Assembly: GCA_025354525.1 (NCBI GenBank)
Contig: JANXMS010000258.1
Span: 1-42,084 of the forward strand
DNA: 42,084 nucleotides
Source: Acidobacteriota bacterium
Lineage (GTDB): Bacteria > Acidobacteriota > Terriglobia > Bryobacterales > Bryobacteraceae
Direction of reading: 5' to 3'
This document shows positions 17,735 through 28,325 of this stretch, piece after piece; positions within the stretch are counted from its first letter, which is position 1, and the number at the start of each line of letters is the position of its first letter. The notes beneath the pieces were generated by a model. It worked only from the letters and a program-made list of their open reading frames with translations, was not told the origin of the DNA and did no database searches. The translations under genes and the position numbers were made by a program.

Positions 17735-17890
17735 TTATTTAGATTGGAGGCCGAGGTACGTGCAGAAGGGGTCGAAATTGCGGTCGCTGAGGAGGTCCGA
17801 CCGGTGGGTATTCCAGAAGGTCCGTCCCAGGTTGGTGCCCCAGGCAGTCGTTTTCGTTCCTTTGGGTATCGTTAGGTGTGGAACCCGGAA
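17735..17890 (-). pseudogene. orphan C-terminal gene fragment beside the defence cassette
   Basis: An open frame of 51 codons, bounded upstream by TGA (17891-17893) and closed by TAA (17735-17737), has no ATG but strongly GC-rich third positions. It reads like a protein end (HLTIPKGTKTTAWGTNLGR, FWNTHRSDLLSDRNFDPF, CTYLGLQSK). I do not recognise the family. Its upstream side stops within about 25 bp of the LexA promoter, so it looks like the tail of a gene whose front was lost when the neighbouring cassette arrived. An artefactual frame is possible. Confidence 0.45.
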
Positions 17891-17911
17891 TCAGGTTTGT
17901 CCAAAAACCCT

Positions 17912-17941
17912 TTGGCATACTGCCATTTTGAGCAGTATGCT
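17912..17941 (+). promoter_or_regulatory. sigma-70-type promoter of the LexA-MTase-nuclease operon
   Basis: TTGGCA (17912-17917, one mismatch to TTGACA) is followed after 18 bp by TATGCT (17936-17941, four of six to TATAAT). A start of transcription about 7 bp further on would fall at or next to the GTG at 17948, giving a leaderless or nearly leaderless message. The SOS box lies across the spacer and both elements. This is pattern matching only; no mapping data. Confidence 0.55.
17915..17940. promoter_or_regulatory. SOS box / LexA operator
   Basis: A perfect 9-bp inverted repeat, GCATACTGC at 17915-17923 and GCAGTATGC at 17932-17940, with 8 bp between. Its core is TACTG-N10-CAGTA, the same outer bases and spacing as the Escherichia coli LexA box. 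It overlaps the predicted -35, spacer and -10 and ends 7 bp before the repressor start codon, so a bound repressor would block its own operon. Confidence 0.75.
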
Positions 17942-17947
17942 TAGGGT

Positions 17948-18565
17948 GTGGCATTGCCGCCCACAGAGCGTCAGCAGCAAATTGCGTCATTCCTCCATTC
18001 CGAATCGCGCAAACGCGGAATCGCGCCGACGCAACGTGAGATCGCCGAGCGCTTTGGGTTTGCCAGTCTCAATTCCGTGCGGTCCCATCTGCGGCTGATG
18101 GAGAAGAAAGGAATGATCAATCGCCTGCCGGGTAAGGCGAGGGGGCTGGAATTGAAACATTGTGCCGCGATGGGCATACCGCTCTTAGGAGACATTGCCG
18201 CGGGCCATCCGCAGATCGCAATTCAAGATTATGGCGAGAGTATCGCGGTTTCCCCGGAGCTGTTTCCGGGTTCGGATTTATTCGCCCTTCGGGTGAGAGG
18301 CGAAAGCATGAGGGATGATGGAATTTTGCCGGGGGATATTGCCGTGATGGATCGTCAGGTGGATGTAGCGGACGGCGAAATCGCGGCGGTGCTACTCAAC
18401 GATGAGGCTACGCTCAAGCACGTCTATCAACCCAGCGGGATGGTCATTCTTCGGGGAGCAAATTCGGCATTTCCGGACATTGTGATTCGCAACGATGGAC
18501 AGGGCGCCGTTCGGATTCTAGGCAGGTACGTCGGCCTAATCCGCAACCACGGGAGCCGCCGATGA
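17948..18565 (+). CDS. lexA: LexA-type self-cleaving repressor
   Basis: A full-length LexA-like protein of 205 residues. The N-terminal winged helix (residues 7-68, TERQQQIASFL through KGMINRLPGKARGLEL) binds operator DNA. The C-terminal S24 peptidase domain has the cleavage site A85-G86 (IAAGHP), nucleophile S120 (GESMRDDGI) and general base K157 (EATLKHVY), one residue off the E. coli numbering. It should lose repression when RecA filaments form on damaged DNA. The start is GTG 17948; TTG 17954 has a better-spaced AGGG and is an alternative. Its stop overlaps the methyltransferase start (ATGA, 18562-18565), so this LexA is built into a restriction-like operon. Whether it is also the cell's general LexA cannot be told here. 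Confidence 0.88.
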   Translation: MALPPTERQQQIASFLHSESRKRGIAPTQREIAERFGFASLNSVRSHLRLMEKKGMINRLPGKARGLELKHCAAMGIPLLGDIAAGHPQIAIQDYGESIAVSPELFPGSDLFALRVRGESMRDDGILPGDIAVMDRQVDVADGEIAAVLLNDEATLKHVYQPSGMVILRGANSAFPDIVIRNDGQGAVRILGRYVGLIRNHGSRR

Positions 18566-21500
18566 TGGCGTCAACACCTCCCAGCTCCGCCCTGCCGTTA
18601 AATGAGCGCCTAGCAGCCTACGGCTGTTCCGCCGTTATTCGGCTTGACCAAAAGCTTACGGCGGCGGAGCAGCTTGATTACCTCGACTTACTGCCTAAGC
18701 AAAGCAACCACACGCCGATTCTTACGGCGGTGGCCGAGCACCAAGGTGCCGCTTTGCTATACCTCGTGGACGCGAGCAGCGACGTAAAGAGCGATGCCGC
18801 CTCCCTTGCCGTCCTATGCAAGCAACTCGCGAATCGCAGCGATCCCGCATGGCTTGGCGTGCTCCGGCCTGGCTGCCTAGAAATCTTTCCCATTGGATTT
18901 CGGGAGACAGCAGACTCCCAGCCCGTGAAGATTGTGAAGGAGAAAGACACGACGACAGCGTTGTTCTTCCAGAGCCTAGTGCATGGCACCTTCGAAGAAA
19001 ATCATCGGCTGAGTGGCACCGACTACGTATTCAACAAAATTTTTGATCTGCTCACCCAGATGACGACCGAGTTTGTCCCTACTGAAGTCAAAGGCAAGCT
19101 GGAAGCGCTGGAGGTCCTGTCGATGGCAGGTCGAGCGCTATTCTTCCGCTTCCTCATCGACCGCCGCATCGTAGTGGAAAGTGAGCGCGACGAAGTCTGT
19201 CCGGGTGCGGCCGAATTGAAGGATGCCTTCTCCTCCGCGGAAAAAGCGGCGCAAACCTCCGCTTGGCTGGATGCGACGTTTAACGGCGACTTTCTCCCTC
19301 TCATTGACGAATCGATTCCAGCCAGCGACCGGGAGGCTCGTGAGGCGGAGTATCTTCGCTACTTCCGGCGTACCGAACGGCAGGCCGGGCGGCGAGTCTT
19401 CCTTCATCTCGACGCAATTCTTCGCGGATGGCGCGCGTCGGGAGAGACGGTGCAGACTGAACTTGACTGGGACGACTTCGACTTCGCTCACATCCCCGTG
19501 GGTGTGCTGAGCCAAGTTTATGAGAGTTTTAGTCACCGTGCCGACCCGCGGACCGCGCGGGATACGAGCGTTCATTACACCCCCCGCACGATTGCGGGAT
19601 TGATGGTTGAACAAGCGTTCGCTGCAATCAAAGGCAAGGGGAACGCCCAAGTTCTGGACAGTTCGTGTGGCGCGGGTATTTTCCTCGTCCTCGCGTTTCG
19701 TCGGCTTGTTCGCGAACACTGGATTAGCAACGAGCGACCGAAGACTGCCGTCATCCAGAGCATCCTTTACAATCAAGTGCGAGGCTTTGACATCAGTGAG
19801 TCGGCGCTGCGACTTGCGGCGCTGGCGCTCTACATCACCGCGATTGAACTGACCGCCAGTCCGCGACCGCCGCAGGCGCTGAAATTCCCCCGCAACTTAC
19901 GGGGTGAGGTGCTCTACCGCTTCGGAGGTGGTGACGAAGGCGGAGCGGAGAAAGCGTTCCCGCTTGGCAGCCTCGGCTTGGAGGTGTCCTCGGACTTCGA
20001 CAACAGGTTCGACATTGTTATCGGCAACCCGCCGTGGACGCGATTGCGCGACGGCAAGAGTGATGCTGAGAACGACGCCGACGAAAAGGGGACAAAGTCG
20101 CCGACTGATGACTTGAACGAGGCTTTCACGGCGATTGGGCGAAGAGTACTGGTCGAACGTGGATTGGGGGATATCGCAAAAAGCTATGAAAACCCTGACA
20201 AGAATCCCGATCTGCCCTTCTTATGGCGCGCGATGGAATGGGCGAAGGAGGATGGGGTCATCGCTTTGGCCATGCATGCAAGACTCTTCGGCCGCACTTC
20301 GGGTAAAGGATTCGAGGCGTGGCGGGCAGTACTGCGAAGCGTAGAAATAACAGGGCTCATTAACGGAGCCGATTTACGCTGGTCGGCGGTTTGGCAGGAC
20401 GTAAAGGTACCGTTCTGTCTGTTGTTCGCTCGCAACAAAAGACCCGGGCCCGATCACCGCTTTTACTATGCTGCCCCCGTTAACGAGCCCGAAATGAACG
20501 GACGAGGACGATTCCGGATCGACTATGAGATTGCTCAGCCCGTAAGCGTGGCGCGAGTCGAGAGGCAGCCTTGGATCCTCAAGACGTTAGCGTTTGGAAC
20601 ATGGTTGGATGTGGAATTGATGGAGACGCTCTCGGGGATCGACAACGAAACTTTGGGGAGTCGCTGGGCTGCGTGGGACCCGGTTGGCGATAAGACCGGA
20701 CAAGGCTACAATCGATCTCCCTCCTTGCCGCAGAAATTCGTGGGTTTTCTTGGTGACTTGCCCCTATTTGAGCCGCCTACACAGACTCTGATTGAGCCAA
20801 CCAGGCAGACGTACGGAGAACGATTCGGCAAGAATTCCGATGGAAAAAGTGGTGCTTATTGGCCAAAGCAAAAAGAACTGTTTCAGCCGCCCCTTGTCAT
20901 TATTCGTCAATCTCCGGGCGACGACAACAGACGACCACGCGCCTACATCCTAGATCATCCGGTGGCATTTTCCCAAAGTTACTATGGTTATTCGTGTGCC
21001 GGCCATCCAGAGGCTGCGACACTGGCAGGACTCATCTACTTACTCGCTCACTCTACTCTGTTCGACTATTACTGCCTATTGACCAGCCGCCGGAGTGGCT
21101 TTGATCGGCAGACCTTCAACAAAGCGGAGTTCGACGCGCTGCCGTTCCCGAACATCGCGAACCTTTTCGCAAGCGATCGGGCAAGTATTCATAGCCTTAC
21201 TGAACGACTTCAAAATAGTGCCGTCGAGCCGCGGGCGCATTTGAACGAATTCATCTTCCGGCTATATGGTTTCAGCCCAGCCGCGGTCCAGGTCGCCGAG
21301 GATACTCTTTTCTCCGCCGCGTCCTATCGAAAAGCGGGGAAGGCGGCACTGGATCGAACGACTTCCGAAACGCGGAAGCCTTTCCTTGCTACTTTGCGCA
21401 AGGAATTGGAACCTTATTTCGACGTCTGTGACGAACATGCGGCGGTGGACGCGGCGACGTTTCAGCCGGACGATTGGCGCGAACCCTGGTTTTTCTTTTC

Positions 21501-21735
21501 CGTCTCTCGCGAGGGCGTCTCGATTCCAATCGATCCGGCGCTGATGAAAACGGCGATGGAGGCGGCGAACCAACGCGGCTGCAGTCGCATCCTTGTCAAT
21601 GCTCCGGGTAAACGCGGCCTCCTGGTAGGCCTCTTGAATCAGCGCCGCTGGTGGACCATAACCCGCGCTCGACTCTGCGCGCAACACATCATCCGCGAGC
21701 GCCTCGGGGCGTGCGGACTTGTGGAGCATGCATGA
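18562..21735 (+). CDS. Eco57I-type N6-adenine DNA methyltransferase
   Basis: A 1057-residue DNA methyltransferase of the Eco57I/type IIG/PglX-like class, expected to methylate adenine at N6. Motifs: the pre-catalytic YTPRTIAGLM at about 339-348, SAM motif I VLDSSCGAG at 364-372, and catalytic motif IV NPPW at 489-492. The C-terminal half holds a probable target-recognition region ending FDRQTFNKAEFDALPFP (around 850), as in Eco57I relatives. The N-terminal ~160 residues form a separate domain I cannot assign, followed by a helical linker; no complete PD-(D/E)xK site is evident there, unlike true type IIG enzymes. ATGA overlaps join it to LexA upstream and the nuclease-like gene downstream. 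Base composition is visibly richer in A+T than the flanks, suggesting transfer. Confidence 0.87.
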   Translation: MMASTPPSSALPLNERLAAYGCSAVIRLDQKLTAAEQLDYLDLLPKQSNHTPILTAVAEHQGAALLYLVDASSDVKSDAASLAVLCKQLANRSDPAWLGVLRPGCLEIFPIGFRETADSQPVKIVKEKDTTTALFFQSLVHGTFEENHRLSGTDYVFNKIFDLLTQMTTEFVPTEVKGKLEALEVLSMAGRALFFRFLIDRRIVVESERDEVCPGAAELKDAFSSAEKAAQTSAWLDATFNGDFLPLIDESIPASDREAREAEYLRYFRRTERQAGRRVFLHLDAILRGWRASGETVQTELDWDDFDFAHIPVGVLSQVYESFSHRADPRTARDTSVHYTPRTIAGLMVEQAFAAIKGKGNAQVLDSSCGAGIFLVLAFRRLVREHWISNERPKTAVIQSILYNQVRGFDISESALRLAALALYITAIELTASPRPPQALKFPRNLRGEVLYRFGGGDEGGAEKAFPLGSLGLEVSSDFDNRFDIVIGNPPWTRLRDGKSDAENDADEKGTKSPTDDLNEAFTAIGRRVLVERGLGDIAKSYENPDKNPDLPFLWRAMEWAKEDGVIALAMHARLFGRTSGKGFEAWRAVLRSVEITGLINGADLRWSAVWQDVKVPFCLLFARNKRPGPDHRFYYAAPVNEPEMNGRGRFRIDYEIAQPVSVARVERQPWILKTLAFGTWLDVELMETLSGIDNETLGSRWAAWDPVGDKTGQGYNRSPSLPQKFVGFLGDLPLFEPPTQTLIEPTRQTYGERFGKNSDGKSGAYWPKQKELFQPPLVIIRQSPGDDNRRPRAYILDHPVAFSQSYYGYSCAGHPEAATLAGLIYLLAHSTLFDYYCLLTSRRSGFDRQTFNKAEFDALPFPNIANLFASDRASIHSLTERLQNSAVEPRAHLNEFIFRLYGFSPAAVQVAEDTLFSAASYRKAGKAALDRTTSETRKPFLATLRKELEPYFDVCDEHAAVDAATFQPDDWREPWFFFSVSREGVSIPIDPALMKTAMEAANQRGCSRILVNAPGKRGLLVGLLNQRRWWTITRARLCAQHIIRERLGACGLVEHA

Positions 21736-22484
21736 AAACGGCAGGAAACAGTGGATTCTTCACTCTTGGGGTGCAGCCGGATCGATACGATCTCCCCCAT
21801 CCGCGCTTGGGCTTACCAGTGATTCTCTTTCTTCGCCGTGTCCTGTTGAGGGCATTCACTAAGCTTCGAGATCGCGGCTTTCCGTTAGCCACGGAACGCG
21901 AAGACAGTGTGACGGAACAGCTCTTCAATGTCCTTGAGAACGACCTTCGTCAAACCGGGGAAATCGGAGGATTCAACTCCACTTTCTATGAGCGCGTTGT
22001 GCGCCATGCCGAAGTCACGAACTACAACGGCCAAAAGCTCGCAAAGACGCCGGATTTATCATTCAAGCTCCGTCATGCGGGCGCGGAGCCGCGTCGTGTT
22101 GTTTCAGCGCATGATGCCCTTTTTGTGGAGTGCAAGCCTGTTGACGCAGGCCATGCGGCCGGAAGCGCATATTGCGACGATGGCCTGATCCGGTTTGTGA
22201 ATGGCGACTATGCTTGGGCAATGCAAGAGGCCATGATGCTCGGCTACGTCCGCAGCGGCAGAACGATTGCAGGGCACCTCACTCCCGCAATGGAAGTATC
22301 CACCCGAAGAACGTCACTCGGAATTATCCAGCCACTCCAACTCTGCCCCGGGCTCGCTGCCGCCGCTTGTGCCGAGGCAGAGGCCGTCTATCTCACGAAG
22401 CATCACCGTGCTTTCCCCTGGCGCGATGGCAAAGGTCCGGCGACTGACATAACCGTTTATCACCTCTGGCATCGCTGTTCGTGA
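21732..22484 (+). CDS. PD-(D/E)xK nuclease-like protein, probable restriction partner
   Basis: A 250-residue protein whose ATG overlaps the methyltransferase stop (ATGA, 21732-21735). I recognise no named family, but it has the arrangement of a PD-(D/E)xK nuclease: an N-terminal helix with conserved-looking acidic residues (EREDSVTEQLF, 56-65), then TPD at 106-108 and, after a strand, FVECKPV with E133-x-K135, followed by a helix with QEAMMLGYVRSGR (165-177). D108, E133 and K135 would bind metal and cut DNA. Paired with the methyltransferase it would be the restriction or effector arm. A frame extending upstream to 21651 exists but lies inside the methyltransferase gene. The gene ends about 50 bp before the convergent DUF1501 gene, the right edge of the cassette. 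Confidence 0.65.
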   Translation: MKTAGNSGFFTLGVQPDRYDLPHPRLGLPVILFLRRVLLRAFTKLRDRGFPLATEREDSVTEQLFNVLENDLRQTGEIGGFNSTFYERVVRHAEVTNYNGQKLAKTPDLSFKLRHAGAEPRRVVSAHDALFVECKPVDAGHAAGSAYCDDGLIRFVNGDYAWAMQEAMMLGYVRSGRTIAGHLTPAMEVSTRRTSLGIIQPLQLCPGLAAAACAEAEAVYLTKHHRAFPWRDGKGPATDITVYHLWHRCS

Positions 22485-22536
22485 GCAATTACCGTGTTCT
22501 TTGACAACCGCTTGTTGTTGTCGTTGCCGGAAGCCC

Positions 22537-23784
22537 CTAGGCGAACAGTTCGGCGATGGGGGTGCCCCGATCGGTGATCGGGACCGGCCGGTCGCCGGCG
22601 TAGAGATTCTTGTGGGGGTCGATGCCGAGGGCGCAGTGGATTGTCGCGTGGAAATCCGGGATGGAGACCGGGCGGTCCACAACCTTGCGGCCAACTTCGT
22701 CAGTACGACCGATGACCTGACCGGTCTTCAAGCCTCCACCGGCTAGCACCATGCTGAAACCAGCCGACTGATGGCCGCGGCCGCCGCCGGCGTCGAAATC
22801 CGGGGGACGACCGAATTCGGTGGCGATGACGACTAACGTCGTATCGAGCATCTTGTTTTTTTCGAGGTCGATGAGAAGAGACGAAAAGGCTTTGTCTAGC
22901 TCCTCAATGAGGAGATGTTGTTTGACTTGACCGTCGTTGTGCGTGTCCCAGCCGGAGCCGTTGAGGAAGTTTAAATTGTGCGACACCTCGACGAAGCGGA
23001 CACCGGATTGGACCAGACGACGGGCGAGGAGACAGCGTTGGCCGAACTCGCCGCCGTAGGATTCCCGGAGCGTCGAGGACTCGCGGGCGAGGTCGAACAC
23101 GTTCAGAAACTTGGGACCGGCGAGTTTGTAAGCCGAGGTCGTGATGGCTTCCTGCTGGAGGACGGTTTGATCCTTCGGATGCCGCTTCGTGTACTCTTCG
23201 CGTATTTTGGCGAGGAGGGTTTCGCGGCGGTCTTCGCGGTTCAGATCGACGTCAGGCGGACGGAGGAGACCGGCGGGGCCGGTTTCGATTTGCGTGAGGT
23301 AGATGTAGCCGTAGCGGGCACCGAGGAAGCCGGGGTCTCGAATGATGCTGGGGTAGCCCATGACAACGTAGGGCGGGACTTCGGCGGTCTTGGCGCCGAG
23401 TTGGTTCGACACGATGGAGCCGATGGCGGGATAGATGATCGTCCCGCTGGGCTTGCGGCCGGTGTGGACGAGGTTGGCGGCGGCGGCGTGTTCTCCCGAG
23501 ATGTCATGCATGATGGAGCGGACAGCAATCGCGCGGTCCATCAGCGGGGCGGTGCGGTGGAGATGCTCGCAGACCTGCTCGCCTTTGATAGCGGTGTTGA
23601 TGGCCTTATAGTAAGACCCGGCGACCTTTTTGCCGTCGCCGAGGGGCTTGGGGTCGAAGGTGTCCATGTGAGCGGCACCGCCGCCAAGCCAGAGGAAGAT
23701 GCAGGCATCGGCTTTGCCCTTCGGGACGTGGGCCGCGGTGGCGAGAGTGGCAGTGGAGGCGGCGAGAAAATCACGGCGTTTCAT
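22537..23784 (-). CDS. DUF1501 family exported protein
   Basis: A 415-residue member of the DUF1501 family (alkaline-phosphatase-like/sulfatase-related fold), start ATG 23784 with a twin-arginine-type signal (MKRRDFLAASTATLATAA). Conserved patterns include FLWLGGGAAHMDTFDPK near the N-terminus, GSGWDTHNDG and VVIATEFGRPP near the C-terminus. No reaction is established. These proteins are nearly always encoded next to a DUF1549/DUF1553 cytochrome-like protein in Planctomycetes and Solibacter-like Acidobacteriota, as here, 11 bp downstream of its stop. Confidence 0.9.
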   Translation of the reverse strand: MKRRDFLAASTATLATAAHVPKGKADACIFLWLGGGAAHMDTFDPKPLGDGKKVAGSYYKAINTAIKGEQVCEHLHRTAPLMDRAIAVRSIMHDISGEHAAAANLVHTGRKPSGTIIYPAIGSIVSNQLGAKTAEVPPYVVMGYPSIIRDPGFLGARYGYIYLTQIETGPAGLLRPPDVDLNREDRRETLLAKIREEYTKRHPKDQTVLQQEAITTSAYKLAGPKFLNVFDLARESSTLRESYGGEFGQRCLLARRLVQSGVRFVEVSHNLNFLNGSGWDTHNDGQVKQHLLIEELDKAFSSLLIDLEKNKMLDTTLVVIATEFGRPPDFDAGGGRGHQSAGFSMVLAGGGLKTGQVIGRTDEVGRKVVDRPVSIPDFHATIHCALGIDPHKNLYAGDRPVPITDRGTPIAELFA

Positions 23785-23795
23785 GGGCGGGATCC

Positions 23796-26357
23796 TTAGG
23801 GGAGTAATACGAATTCGGGGCTGTTGAGCATGGCCCACAGCGCGTCTTCAAAGAGCACGCGGAACTCGGTTTTCAAGCGCTTGGTGGGTTCGGCTCCGAG
23901 GCGCATTTTCTTCTCTTCGTCCATACGAATCAGCGTTGCTTCGGCGCTGAGATGGTTGGACCAAGATACGCGGTTATCGCTTTTCAGCGCGGCGTAACCG
24001 GTTTGGGCACCGGCCACTTTTCGGGTGGCGTAGGCGGGCCGGAGCAGGTTGGCCATGGCGGTGATCTCGGTGGCCGTGGGGGGCCGAGACAAGATGCGGA
24101 GGAAGGCTTCTTCGACGAGCTTTTCGACGGGGAGGTCCAACAGAGCCAGGTCGGTGAAGGCGCTATCGTCCGAGAGCCGAAGGATGCGGGTGCCGAGGAC
24201 GCCGTTGGCGAGGATGAGGGTTTGCATGGGAGATGCGCCGTCGTCGCGGGTGGTGGAAGGATTCTGCCGAGACTGGCGCCAGCCGTAGTTAGTGAGCACG
24301 TCGATGAGTGCTTGGGCGATGGGCAGGGCGAGGGCGGGGCGGTCGCGCTCGTTGGATAGAGCCGTCATCTGCCACGAGCGGGAGGGCTTGCCCATGTTGA
24401 GGAACTGGGCGGGGGGACGATCGCCGGCGGGGTTGAGATTGAGGTCTTCACATTCGAAGGCTTTGCCGACGGCGCGGTGGAGCGAGTCGACGAGTTGTTC
24501 GGCGGAGAGTTTGCGGCGGACGGGTCCGGCGAAGAGGCGGTTTTGCGGGGAGAGTTGGGTGGCGGCGAGGGATTCGAGGGGGCGGCGTTGGTAGGCGTGG
24601 GAAGAAAAGATCAAGCGGGCGAGGTGTTTGAGATCGTAGCCGCTCGTGACGAATTCGCGGGCGAGGAATTGCATCAACTCCGGGTGGGACGGTTTGGCGA
24701 AGGCCCAGTCGTCGACGGGTTCGACGATGCCGATGCCGAAGTAGCGCTTCCAGACGCGGTTAACGACGACTTGGGCGAAGCGCTCGTTTTTGGGCGAGAC
24801 GATGAGGCCGGCGAGGGTGCGGCGGGATTCGACTTTGCCTTCGGTGGGGAGGGAGCCGGTTTCGTCGTGGCGGATGAGATCGTTGAAGGCCCAGCCGGGG
24901 TTGATGGCTTCGCCGGCTTTGAGCGAGATGGAGACGGCCGGCTTGCGGCTGCCTTCGCCGAGGGGGACGGTGCTGGCGACGGGGAGCTTGAGCGCCTTGC
25001 CGTTGAGCATCGCGGCCATGGAGAACAGATCCTGCTGCTTGTAGGGATGGAAGGGGGCGTCGTGGCAGCGGGCGCAACCGAGCTTGGTGCCGAGGAAGGC
25101 GAGGCCAAGGATTTCAGCTTTGGCGGCCATGGGAGCATCGTTCAGAGTGGCTTGAGAAAAGGCCGCGGGGGCACCGAGATGGACGCTGCCTTCCATTTGG
25201 ACTAGTTCTGTAACGAAGCGATCGAAGGGGATGCCGTCCGAGAACGACTGGTGGATCCAGTAGCGGAAGGGGCCGGTGTTATTGAGATCGGGCTTGAGGA
25301 TGCCGGGATTTTCGGCGAGAACGTCCTGCCAGTAGCTGACCCAGTTGTCGGCCCAGTCGGGATGGTTGAGGAGACGATCGATGGTTTTGGCGCGGCGGGT
25401 GGCGGCGGGGAGGGATTGGAAGGCCCGGATTTCGTCGGCGGTGGGAATGAGGCCGGTGGAATCGAGGGAGAGTCGGCGGAGGAATTCGAGGTCGTCGGTT
25501 AGGGGCCGGGGGGCGAGGGCGGCGGCTTTGAGCTTGGTATTGAGGAAGTGGTCGATTGCGTTGTTCGCGGGGAGGTTGGGGGTGGCGGCGGGGATGGGGA
25601 CGTGGCGGTCTTTATAGAACGCGCGGGCTTCGTCGTGGCGGGTGTTCCAGCGGGCGGAGACTTCGCGGGAGGCTTCGAGGCGGCGTTCGCGGTCGGCTTG
25701 GCGATGGAGGGTTTCTTGTTGGGCGACGTGGGTTTCCCAGCCGAGGTCGGTGAGTCGGGGGGAGTTATCGGGACCGAGGAGGTGTTCGAGTTCGCCTGGT
25801 TTGCCGAAGGAGACGGCGAGTTCGCCGGGGGTGGGCATGAGGCCTTTGCCGCCGATGAGGGCGATGAGAGCGAAGGTGTGGGGTTTGCCGTCGCCGGGGA
25901 AGTTGAGGAAGACGTCCTGATGGGGATGGGTGAGGGGGCGGTGGCCGGTTTCGTCGCGGACGGGCGGTTCGGGGACGGGGTCGTCGCCGGTGGTGTTGGG
26001 TTTTTGCTTATTGGTTTTGGCGACTTCGACGCCGTCGATGAGGAGGCGGGCGGCACCGCGGGCGCGTAGGCGGAAGCGATGGGGGCCGGCGGGAATTACC
26101 CGTTCGAAGGAGGCGCGGAGGGCGAAGGGAACGGAGCGATCCTGGGGCAGGGCTTCGGCGGAGTATTTGAGCGGGAGGCGGGGGAAGCCGAAGGCGGATT
26201 CGGTGTATTGGTAGGCGGGGGCGCCGGTGGGGGATAGTTCAGTGCCGGGGGGAAGATTTTCGAAGATCTCGACGCGGACGGGAGATTTATCGAGGAGGCC
26301 GGCGGAGAGGGGGGAGGCAGCGGCGAGGGTGAGCAGGGTGACGAGTTTATGGAGCAT
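23796..26357 (-). CDS. DUF1549/DUF1553 protein with c-type haem site
   Basis: An 853-residue secreted protein from ATG 26357 (signal MLHKLVTLLTLAAASPLSAG). The N-terminal ~250 residues form a beta-rich region that may bind carbohydrate. Then comes DUF1549 (NNAIDHFLNTKL through LSLDSTGLIPTADEIRAF), a haem-attachment motif CARCH at 428-432 followed by FHPYKQQDLF, and the C-terminal DUF1553 (ERFAQVVVNRVWKRYFG, then LARLIFSSHAYQ and RKLSAEQLVDSLHRA). It is thought to act at the cell surface with its DUF1501 partner, possibly in oxidation of polysaccharide; the true activity is unknown. Confidence 0.9.
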   Translation of the reverse strand: MLHKLVTLLTLAAASPLSAGLLDKSPVRVEIFENLPPGTELSPTGAPAYQYTESAFGFPRLPLKYSAEALPQDRSVPFALRASFERVIPAGPHRFRLRARGAARLLIDGVEVAKTNKQKPNTTGDDPVPEPPVRDETGHRPLTHPHQDVFLNFPGDGKPHTFALIALIGGKGLMPTPGELAVSFGKPGELEHLLGPDNSPRLTDLGWETHVAQQETLHRQADRERRLEASREVSARWNTRHDEARAFYKDRHVPIPAATPNLPANNAIDHFLNTKLKAAALAPRPLTDDLEFLRRLSLDSTGLIPTADEIRAFQSLPAATRRAKTIDRLLNHPDWADNWVSYWQDVLAENPGILKPDLNNTGPFRYWIHQSFSDGIPFDRFVTELVQMEGSVHLGAPAAFSQATLNDAPMAAKAEILGLAFLGTKLGCARCHDAPFHPYKQQDLFSMAAMLNGKALKLPVASTVPLGEGSRKPAVSISLKAGEAINPGWAFNDLIRHDETGSLPTEGKVESRRTLAGLIVSPKNERFAQVVVNRVWKRYFGIGIVEPVDDWAFAKPSHPELMQFLAREFVTSGYDLKHLARLIFSSHAYQRRPLESLAATQLSPQNRLFAGPVRRKLSAEQLVDSLHRAVGKAFECEDLNLNPAGDRPPAQFLNMGKPSRSWQMTALSNERDRPALALPIAQALIDVLTNYGWRQSRQNPSTTRDDGASPMQTLILANGVLGTRILRLSDDSAFTDLALLDLPVEKLVEEAFLRILSRPPTATEITAMANLLRPAYATRKVAGAQTGYAALKSDNRVSWSNHLSAEATLIRMDEEKKMRLGAEPTKRLKTEFRVLFEDALWAMLNSPEFVLLP

Positions 26358-26435
26358 CGCGGGTGTACCTGTTTTACTACGCCTACGCTTCCAATTCAAG
26401 GGTCTCCTTTTGACGGGGAGTCGAGGATAAGTGAT

Positions 26436-26462
26436 TCAAGTTATTCATTCGATCACCGATAT
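26436..26462 (+). promoter_or_regulatory. sigma-28-like promoter before the MCP-like gene
   Basis: TCAAGTTA (26436-26443), 11 bp, then ACCGATAT (26455-26462). Against the FliA consensus TAAAGTTT-N11-GCCGATAA this is 12 of 16 matches at the exact spacing. The predicted message would start near 26469, about 60 nt before the ATG. A similar element precedes the chemoreceptor operon at 38.2 kb. The remainder of 26358-26528 holds only a ribosome site (GGAGG, 26514-26520 area). Confidence 0.5.
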
Positions 26463-26528
26463 GTGAAGTTGGGGTGTGAAGCCCAGTATTGGGCGTGCCT
26501 GGATGTCCGAATTGCGGAGGAAATTATC

Positions 26529-28325
26529 ATGAGTTGGATACGCGGATGGGAATCGCATTTAGGGTTCGCCCCGGCGGGCTTCGTCGCTGGACTTCAGGCG
26601 CTTCAGTCTGCGTTGCACTCCCGATCCGGCAAGGTTAGCGCAACGGAGACGGTGGGAAGAGTGATTGCTGACCTGGAAGAGTTGAATCGGGCGACCGAAG
26701 CGGACTTTCTGTTGATCAGCGGAAATCTGATGGAGTTCCTGACGGGAGTCCAGAAGCTGCAAAGCCGGGTGGAAGCGTTTTCGGCGATGCTCGAGGGGGA
26801 GCAGTCGCGAACTACCCACGATGTGATGGCTTCGGTGAGAGAGCGCGTCGAACAGATGCAGTTTCGATTGGGGGAGGGTAACCGGCTATTCGAAACCTTG
26901 CAAAGAGAAACGAGAGGCATTCTGCGGACGTTTTCCACGTTCGGGAAAGTGGTCTCGACCTTTCAGATTACGGCCATTTTGGCGCGCATTGAGACGGCAC
27001 ACTTGTCGATGACCCAGGAGGATCTGAGCAACCTAGCGGATGAGGTGCGACTGGCCAGTCAGGGGATGGAAGTGCGAGCCGACGAGTTGCTGACGGCGGC
27101 GAGCGCCCTGGGAGAATGCGTTGCGAGGGCCCTGCGCGAGATTGCCCGTTTGAACACGATTCAACTAAAAACGATAGAGGATGTTTTGGCACAAGTCGAT
27201 AAAGGCTTGGAATCGACCGAGGCCCGAAAGCGGAGTACCGCGTTGGTTTCCGTTCGCTTGGGCGAGGAGTTGAAGGCGCTTTCCCGCGACTTGGGAACGA
27301 TTGCGATGTCGATTCAATTTCACGACATTACAAGGCAGCAGGTGGAGCATGTCATTACGGGACTGCAAGAGTCGCTACCGTCCGCGCCTGGTCGGCCGCC
27401 TTTGCGCTCCGGGTTACCTTTGATTCGGCTACAAGGGGCGCAGTTGGGCGAAGCGGCGTTAGGTTTCACTCGATCCGCGGGCAAGATCGACGACGATCTC
27501 GAAGGAGTGTCGGAGCGGGTGGGCGAGATGATTCGGGTCTGCCAGTCGCTCTCGGCAACGGGCGAGGGGAACGAGTGCGATCGTCTCGCCGTCATGCGGG
27601 AGCAATTTGACGCGGTCCTGGGAGCGATCAACGAATTGGAGGTAACGGAGGGGGGGAGACAGGCGTTATCGGCAGAGCTCCGGGTGATCGGCGATCGATT
27701 GCAAAAGGCGATTGTCGAGATCCAGGCGATTGAAATCCAGTTGAGCAGACTAGCCGTGAACACTTCTATTACGGCCTGTCATATTGGGCAGATTGGCGAT
27801 CCACTCATCGTGGTGGCAGGATCGATGCAAATATTGCAGGCGGATTGCTCCACCCGTTCGGCAGCGGCGGCGGATGCGCTGGTCGTGATTCGATCGGCGA
27901 TTGATTCGCTTGCGGAGGTGCGTAGCCACAAGGTGGGCGATGCTCAGTTGCGCCAGTGGCGGCAGCGGATGGAGGGGGTTCGCGTAGAACGCCAAGCAAG
28001 TATGGGGGCGGTGCGCCCGATCTGCACGCTAGCGGATTCGCTGAGCGGCCAAGCGCAACGATCAGGGGGCCACGGGGCGATTGGGCAGCGGTTTGCGACA
28101 ACGGCGAACCAGTGTCGCGCAATGCTCGGAGCGCTGGTGGAGAAGTTCCCGCGCAGTTCCGCAATTGATGAGGGGACGGCTTCGGATGAGGGTGAATTGA
28201 CCGCTCGTTACACGATGAAATCGGAGCGTGCGGTTCATGCGGCTATGTTTGGTAGGACGGTTGAGCAGGAAGCGAAGGGCGGTGGTGTGGCGACGGAGTC
28301 GGGCGGAGACGTTGAACTATTCTGA
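26529..28325 (+). CDS. soluble MCP-like coiled-coil chemotaxis protein
   Basis: A 598-residue protein without signal peptide or membrane segments. It is almost entirely helical with heptad patterns. Two stretches resemble methyl-accepting chemotaxis protein signalling sequences: FQITAILARIETAHL with LSNLADEVRLASQGME (about 145-185), and LAVNTSITACHIGQIGDPLIVVAG (about 409-432), which aligns by eye with the canonical [20 protein letters not shown] tip but with key residues altered. FHDITRQQVEHV near 262-273 is a motif I know from MCP- and CheZ-like proteins. It probably interacts with the Che complex encoded convergently next door. The start ATG 26529 has a strong Shine-Dalgarno. The sigma-28-like promoter supports a motility role. 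A variant receptor or an adaptor are both possible. Confidence 0.65.
   Translation: MSWIRGWESHLGFAPAGFVAGLQALQSALHSRSGKVSATETVGRVIADLEELNRATEADFLLISGNLMEFLTGVQKLQSRVEAFSAMLEGEQSRTTHDVMASVRERVEQMQFRLGEGNRLFETLQRETRGILRTFSTFGKVVSTFQITAILARIETAHLSMTQEDLSNLADEVRLASQGMEVRADELLTAASALGECVARALREIARLNTIQLKTIEDVLAQVDKGLESTEARKRSTALVSVRLGEELKALSRDLGTIAMSIQFHDITRQQVEHVITGLQESLPSAPGRPPLRSGLPLIRLQGAQLGEAALGFTRSAGKIDDDLEGVSERVGEMIRVCQSLSATGEGNECDRLAVMREQFDAVLGAINELEVTEGGRQALSAELRVIGDRLQKAIVEIQAIEIQLSRLAVNTSITACHIGQIGDPLIVVAGSMQILQADCSTRSAAAADALVVIRSAIDSLAEVRSHKVGDAQLRQWRQRMEGVRVERQASMGAVRPICTLADSLSGQAQRSGGHGAIGQRFATTANQCRAMLGALVEKFPRSSAIDEGTASDEGELTARYTMKSERAVHAAMFGRTVEQEAKGGGVATESGGDVELF

Follow-up and report, generated by a model that had tools for sequence, protein, structure and literature searches.

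Some bacterial immune operons stand under regulators that respond to DNA damage, and CapW/BrxR, CapH with CapP, and CapK with CapS are named as such controllers (PMC13373217). A LexA repressor can also be private to one operon: in lexA2-imuA-imuB-imuC of Pseudomonas putida, a second lexA shares its transcript with the operon under its control after DNA damage (PMC5261740). Here we analyze a three-gene cassette in a 42,084-nucleotide contig of an Acidobacteriota bacterium (JANXMS010000258.1, assembly GCA_025354525.1; the whole contig is called the window), in which a lexA gene is followed by genes for a predicted adenine methyltransferase (MT) and a predicted PD-(D/E)xK nuclease (P3). We consider it fairly likely that MT and P3 are the two subunits of a mobile restriction-modification-like system, and that a private SOS switch controls it.

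The cassette resembles the CapH and CapP, CapW/BrxR, and CapK and CapS arrangements in having a repressor ahead of an immune-type operon that would be freed by DNA damage, but those repressors belong to other protein families, whereas here a true LexA fills the role, and host RecA is predicted to assist its cleavage. Its gene is the sole regulator gene in the operon, with no CapH-CapP pair, WYL repressor or CapK/CapS set, and the word LexA is absent from the main text of the article on those controllers (PMC13373217). As an operon with a private LexA, the cassette has its closest precedent in lexA2-imuABC, whose cargo is a set of mutagenic polymerases in place of a predicted methyltransferase and nuclease. 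The original prediction had named a true LexA as first gene of an operon as an arrangement not known to it. For restriction-modification and defence, searches of open-licence papers listed no paper on an operon opened by lexA, but the statement is too broad as worded, since lexA2-imuABC is such an operon, for mutagenesis (PMC5261740). Type II systems with C proteins are alike in that an autogenous regulator travels with a restriction-modification operon; C proteins, however, set timing and level, and the word LexA does not appear in the review on them (PMC12707154).

Two ATGA overlaps, read in the sequence, link lexA to MT and MT to P3 in one operon (Table 1). The original prediction had correctly located these genes and overlaps, the residues of LexA, the motifs of the methyltransferase, the small PD/ECK protein and the SOS-type box.

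Table 1. Features of the cassette and their positions in the window.
Feature	Position	Strand	Details
Operator	17915..17940	.	perfect palindrome GCATACTGC-N8-GCAGTATGC; TACTG-N10-CAGTA inside at 17918-17937
lexA, 205 aa, GTG start	17948..18565	+	N42 18071-18073; A85-G86 18200-18205; S120 18305-18307; K157 18416-18418
MT, 1057 aa, Eco57I/type IIG-like adenine methyltransferase	18562..21735	+	NPPW (residues 489-492) at 20026-20037
P3, 250 aa, predicted PD-(D/E)xK nuclease	21732..22484	+	P107-D108 22050-22055; E133-x-K135 22128-22136
Operator and three genes, stretch bounded by synteny breakpoints against sister genome G094	17796..22537	.	

The arrangement recurs. Within the order, 10 of 257 genomes, this one included, have an MT relative (E up to 1e-20), and none of the other 18 genomes of the genus does; for P3 the count is 8 of 257. 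Five genomes of five other genera carry lexA-MT-P3 in the same order, with identities ranging from 79-85% down to 41-46%, and in a sixth genome of the order lexA and MT are followed by the contig end. A LexA that recurs without the pair would have spoken against the cassette as a unit; the six best non-self LexA matches of the order all adjoin MT, which leaves that idea standing. No LexA adjoins the distant MTs (G248, G241, G178) or the distant P3s (G232, G148), with the view cut by a contig start in G178 and G148. One such distant MT-P3 pair (L043:2668-13757, in G241) sits amid open reading frames (ORFs) that look restriction-type by eye: helicase-like, a second methyltransferase, endonuclease-like and a KAP-type ATPase.

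A search of genome contigs with an alignment of six P3 sequences yielded 64 loci, among them cassettes of two named strains, Malonomonas rubra DSM 5091 (L102) and Bradyrhizobium pachyrhizi PAC 48 (L096). MT lies directly upstream of P3 in 63, the remaining locus being cut at the contig start, and the assigned start of P3 is at most 10 nucleotides (nt) from the end of MT in 61 of the 63. A lexA gene precedes MT at 31 of the 64 loci, including one broken copy (L114:1035-1262); the co-occurrence of the three families in the same order, proposed as a check by the original prediction, is observed. When mapped on the MT tree, the presence of LexA changes 7 times, against a mean of 19.1 when the labels are shuffled. 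The methyltransferase gene is broken at two other loci, by an in-frame stop at one (L036:11916-15080, in G231) and, in a Burkholderia plasmid, by division into two ORFs (L079:5737-8906).

Other genes can occupy the place of lexA. Four of 25 plasmid records with MT matches were opened, and the regulator slot held an XRE-type gene in two and an unnamed small gene in two. Seven non-LexA upstream genes were scanned, and those of three gammaproteobacterial loci gave weak or no helix-turn-helix (HTH) matches. In gammaproteobacterial relatives a gene of about 150 aa stands in the slot before MT (L134:4457-4909, L140:4436-4909, L143:4258-4707, L076:5462-5914), its Pfam HTH matches weak or none. Seven close MT relatives (L084, L086, L087, L089, L090, L091 and L092), mostly from Planctomycetota and Verrucomicrobiota, have no LexA upstream, and no obvious regulator gene was seen by eye among the upstream genes listed for them.

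The regulator itself is a complete LexA. It scores 167.8 bits against the NCBIfam equivalog model TIGR00498, above the cut-off of 110.95, and has both the winged-helix LexA DNA-binding domain and the S24 domain. Residues 6-200 align with solved LexA repressors and place A85-G86, S120 and K157 opposite the AG, S and K of those proteins; from the roles of the aligned residues, we take these to be the self-cleavage site and the Ser/Lys dyad. Equivalog match and alignment agree on the full-length LexA with intact cleavage site and dyad that had been predicted, and all four residues are kept in 33 of 33 aligned cassette LexAs (the broken copy at L114 was excluded from this comparison, the distance comparison, the LexA tree and operator scoring).

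The box upstream of lexA is an exact TACTG-N10-CAGTA within a perfect 9-8-9 palindrome that ends at 17940, with the assigned lexA start at 17948. Within its own 7.3 Mb genome the box is no more frequent than chance: the exact pattern occurs three times, against 3-4 estimated from base composition, the other two copies lying one within a 968-aa ORF and one within only a 94-aa ORF, and when at most one mismatch is tolerated it has 66 matches, compared with 183 for a reversed control pattern. Its reality is argued by comparison between genomes. In all seven cassettes of the order, this one included, an exact TACTG-N10-CAGTA begins about 30-40 nt 5' of lexA, in surrounding DNA that has diverged. 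We scored 110 bp upstream regions on an 11-point scale for TAC(T/C)G-N10-C(A/G)GTA, drawn up after the operators had been viewed, with a cut of at least 10 and an expectation from first-order Markov resampling. Twenty-nine of the 33 cassette lexA upstream regions reached the cut (0.08 expected), as against none of 29 upstream regions of MTs without a detected lexA; three of these controls (L088, L093, L131) lie near a contig edge, and a lexA farther upstream is possible there. The plain TACTG-N10-CAGTA, a pattern in earlier use than the scale, is exact in 14 of the 33 and in none of the 29. When a looser pattern was sought over 300 bp instead of 110, two control loci matched (L124, L143). On conservation in the order and the counts of 29/33 against 0/29, we reject a chance box, and the SOS box that the original prediction had put on the promoter is an exact palindromic pattern found at the same place in relatives.

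Variants of the operator appear mostly to track the recognition helix. The residue aligned with Asn41 of solved LexA (N42 in the window) is Asn in 28 of the 33 cassette LexAs. CCG-type operators accompany the LexAs of L099, L116 and L127, which have Ser, Thr and Ser at this position, and L126, with Arg there, has a CTAG-type palindrome as its operator. L132 combines Asn with a LexA of other origin and the operator GAAC-N4-GTTC. The assembly of Geobacter sp. UBA6151 has two cassettes on two contigs, L107 with a weak CTG-type box and Asn, and L116 with a CCG-type operator and Thr as the helix residue; it is as if the two switches in this assembly were insulated from each other.

Cassette LexAs also have a history of their own. 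In a tree of 78 LexAs, 31 of the 33 form one group, separate from the 45 other LexAs, which include 12 from cassette genomes; the group has support of 93 in the Shimodaira-Hasegawa-like approximate likelihood ratio test (SH-aLRT), a value from a quick search that is below the tool's star, with L073 (a short row) and 18 duplicate rows dropped. By record names, the group spans seven phyla: Acidobacteriota, Verrucomicrobiota, Pseudomonadota, Thermodesulfobacteriota, Myxococcota, Nitrospinota and Kiritimatiellota. The LexAs of L126 and L132 fall outside it, and their other origin and other operators suggest independent recruitment. Distances between LexAs correlate with those between the MTs (r 0.87 over 31 loci, 0.94 over 29), and none of 2000 permutations gave as high a value. 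Transfer as a unit, as originally proposed, is supported by this correlation, by the seven-phylum group and by two synteny breakpoints around the cassette. Composition, on which the original prediction had leaned, carries small weight: the cassette is indeed somewhat lower in G+C (0.54-0.59 per kb, against 0.57-0.69 in the rest of the window), but the support that this lends to transfer is modest. Taken on these comparisons, control by a true LexA is well supported, through the autocleavage residues, the operators that mostly follow the recognition helix and the separate LexA group, and the regulatory part of the cassette is, on this reading, real and recurring across phyla.

The host has a LexA besides. 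In this genome (G000, 97% complete) a second LexA, matched at 34% identity, lies on contig C609, so that the cassette copy is not the only one, which had been a possible objection. Upstream of the housekeeping lexA stands a direct repeat, TTCGC-N6-TTCGC; of 11 genomes in the genus, 10 (this one included) have it exactly and the sister G094 has an imperfect form; no TACTG-N10-CAGTA was seen by eye in about 160 nt upstream of this gene in the 11 genomes. The repeat occurs 53 times in this genome, against 24 for a reversed control, and one copy lies just 5' of a gene with a RecA-family match, which we take to be imuA-like and a known SOS target. The host LexA probably does not use the cassette box. 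Since the box at the host lexA is of another kind, a direct repeat, the cassette LexA seems to be a private switch, one that would govern little beyond its own operon. Among 18 other cassette genomes that were searched, a LexA additional to the cassette's passes the family cut-off in 12; none does so in the remaining six, several of them draft assemblies.

MT matches the Pfam families Eco57I, N6_Mtase and MmeI_Mtase and has S-adenosylmethionine-binding and NPPW-type methyltransferase motifs. Its best PADLOC matches are type IIG models, and the best fold matches in PDB of its predicted structure (predicted local distance difference test score, pLDDT, 84.5) are the type IIG enzymes BpuSI (3s1s) and DrdV (7lo5), followed by CamA and the PglX of bacteriophage exclusion (BREX), with low whole-chain template modelling (TM) scores of about 0.3-0.45, those of the type IIG enzymes being 0.31-0.42; profile matches to these enzymes are partial. 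Membership in BREX was considered and rejected, as PglX models give MT 22-27 bits against cut-offs of 400-900. In type IIG enzymes, nuclease and methyltransferase share one chain. Here the intact nuclease-type residues are on a separate protein, P3, and in our own reading the N-terminal 130 residues of MT resemble a nuclease-type fold in which the acidic residues and the lysine are missing.

Neither Pfam (at E 0.01) nor PADLOC or NCBIfam (both at E 0.1) yielded a family match for P3. Its E57, P107-D108 and E133-x-K135 are invariant in 51 aligned sequences (that of the window and 50 of the 64 loci), and in the structural model (pLDDT 91.6) D108 and E133-x-K135 lie on strands that fit the order expected of a PD-(D/E)xK core. 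P3 is a probable nuclease, an assignment drawn from motif and strand order, since neither profile nor fold search gave a relative in PDB.

The cassette lies in DNA that varies within the genus. Compared with the sister genome G094, synteny stops at 17795 and restarts at 22538 on another contig, with the cassette filling the gap; as the G094 flanks are on different contigs, no empty junction is observable there. In G095 and G097, sequence matching up to 16826/16827 runs straight into 38413, so that window positions 16828-38412, a 21.6-kb block, are absent between the same flanks. No notable repeats were found at the cassette ends. A tblastn search of phage records, which did not extend to viral contigs, gave no MT relatives, and a search for P3 in viral contigs, which did not take in phage records, gave 95 pattern matches, none of them a relative. 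Elsewhere in the block, a 658-aa ORF (26349-28325) has no Pfam match at E 0.01. Flanking genes were sampled as 146 ORFs from 28 of the 64 loci (at most three per side, each at most 700 aa, without a control set), and the best 25 of 154 Pfam families by frequency are mostly ordinary. Defence-type annotations stand beside two of the four plasmid relatives opened.

If the private-switch reading is right, cassette LexA would bind the operator before lexA and hold lexA, MT and P3 low. Phage attack or other damage would expose single-stranded DNA on which RecA is loaded, and loaded RecA would prompt the cassette LexA to cut itself at Ala85-Gly86. This would switch the operon on and raise the amounts of MT and P3. 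MT would supply sequence recognition and methylation and P3 the cutting, probably in one complex. A restriction or defence role, which the protein families suggest, is plausible.

Several observations weigh against this reading. Four cassettes fall under the operator cut (L103, L107, L126 and L132), with weak boxes (9/11) at L103 and L107, and L109, with Thr at the N42 position and a near-standard box, is an exception to the rule that links helix and operator. No significant PDB match was found for P3, either by Foldseek (none below E 0.001, the best at 0.097) or by profile search. At 26 of the 64 loci MT and P3 have enough sequence upstream and no LexA (seven could not be told), so LexA is not needed for the pair. 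PADLOC matches (E 1e-10) in the flanks are few, for instance mad3 with four, GajB with two and PDC-S05 with two members among the 25 of 224 models listed; the sample leans against the enrichment in defence neighbourhoods that the original prediction had looked for. Finally, with MT held low by LexA, P3 might be induced in a cell whose own DNA carries little methylation, and induction could kill that cell.

This last point underlies the idea of a damage-triggered suicide or abortive-infection module, in which damaged or infected cells die because P3 is induced while their genome is poorly methylated. MT and P3 stand behind one operator, so that methylation would not run ahead of cutting by way of a separate promoter, and published damage-responsive controllers often guard host-killing systems (PMC13373217). 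MT is always translated before P3, however, and the occurrence of the pair without LexA at 26 of 64 loci fits ordinary restriction-modification; we find such a module improbable, slightly more so than a LexA that serves mainly as a C-protein-like autorepressor for establishment. There, a naive cell without LexA would see a burst of MT and P3, its genome would be methylated, LexA would later keep expression low, and SOS induction would be secondary. One autogenous operon spread horizontally over seven phyla agrees with that role, as does the standing of C proteins as known autogenous regulators of restriction-modification operons (PMC12707154). A plain autorepressor would have no need of self-cleavage residues, yet they are kept in every cassette LexA aligned, and the XRE-type or other small genes that fill the slot in relatives mark LexA as a special choice, which makes this proposal unlikely, though the least so of the alternatives.

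SOS control is typical of repair genes, and with so few flanking defence genes the cassette might serve DNA repair or epigenetic control after damage instead of restriction of foreign DNA. A type IIG-like methyltransferase beside a PD-(D/E)xK protein, patchy in the order (10 of 257 genomes) and spread horizontally, looks more like restriction-modification, and we rate a repair role a little lower still than the suicide module. Least credible by a wide margin is that the cassette LexA is the housekeeping SOS repressor of its host, with two unrelated neighbours. In favour of this, the protein is a full LexA that passes the equivalog cut-off, and six of the 18 cassette genomes (several of them drafts) have no second copy above it, but in this genome the idea is contradicted by the second LexA, the different host box and the separate tree group, and 12 of the 18 have a further LexA.

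Returning to the SOS-switched restriction-modification-like system, the cassette may represent a further controller family beside CapW/BrxR, CapH with CapP, and CapK with CapS: a dedicated, mobile line of LexAs that reads an operator code of its own, is insulated from the SOS regulon of the host and ties a split restriction-modification system to RecA. We put this wider proposal only slightly above an even prospect, an estimate lowered in view of the quick tree behind the seven-phylum group and the scant evidence from gene neighbourhoods. If it is true, DNA cuts by the cassette enzymes or by other defences could act back on the operon through RecA and increase its expression. The operator and recognition-helix variants across phyla offer a natural data set on change in LexA specificity, and the two named strains make the idea testable. 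Confirmation would establish an unusual control of a restriction-like defence through its own copy of the bacterial DNA-damage switch; the classic SOS repressor would have been recruited as a private mobile copy, joining SOS regulation to the control of immune operons.

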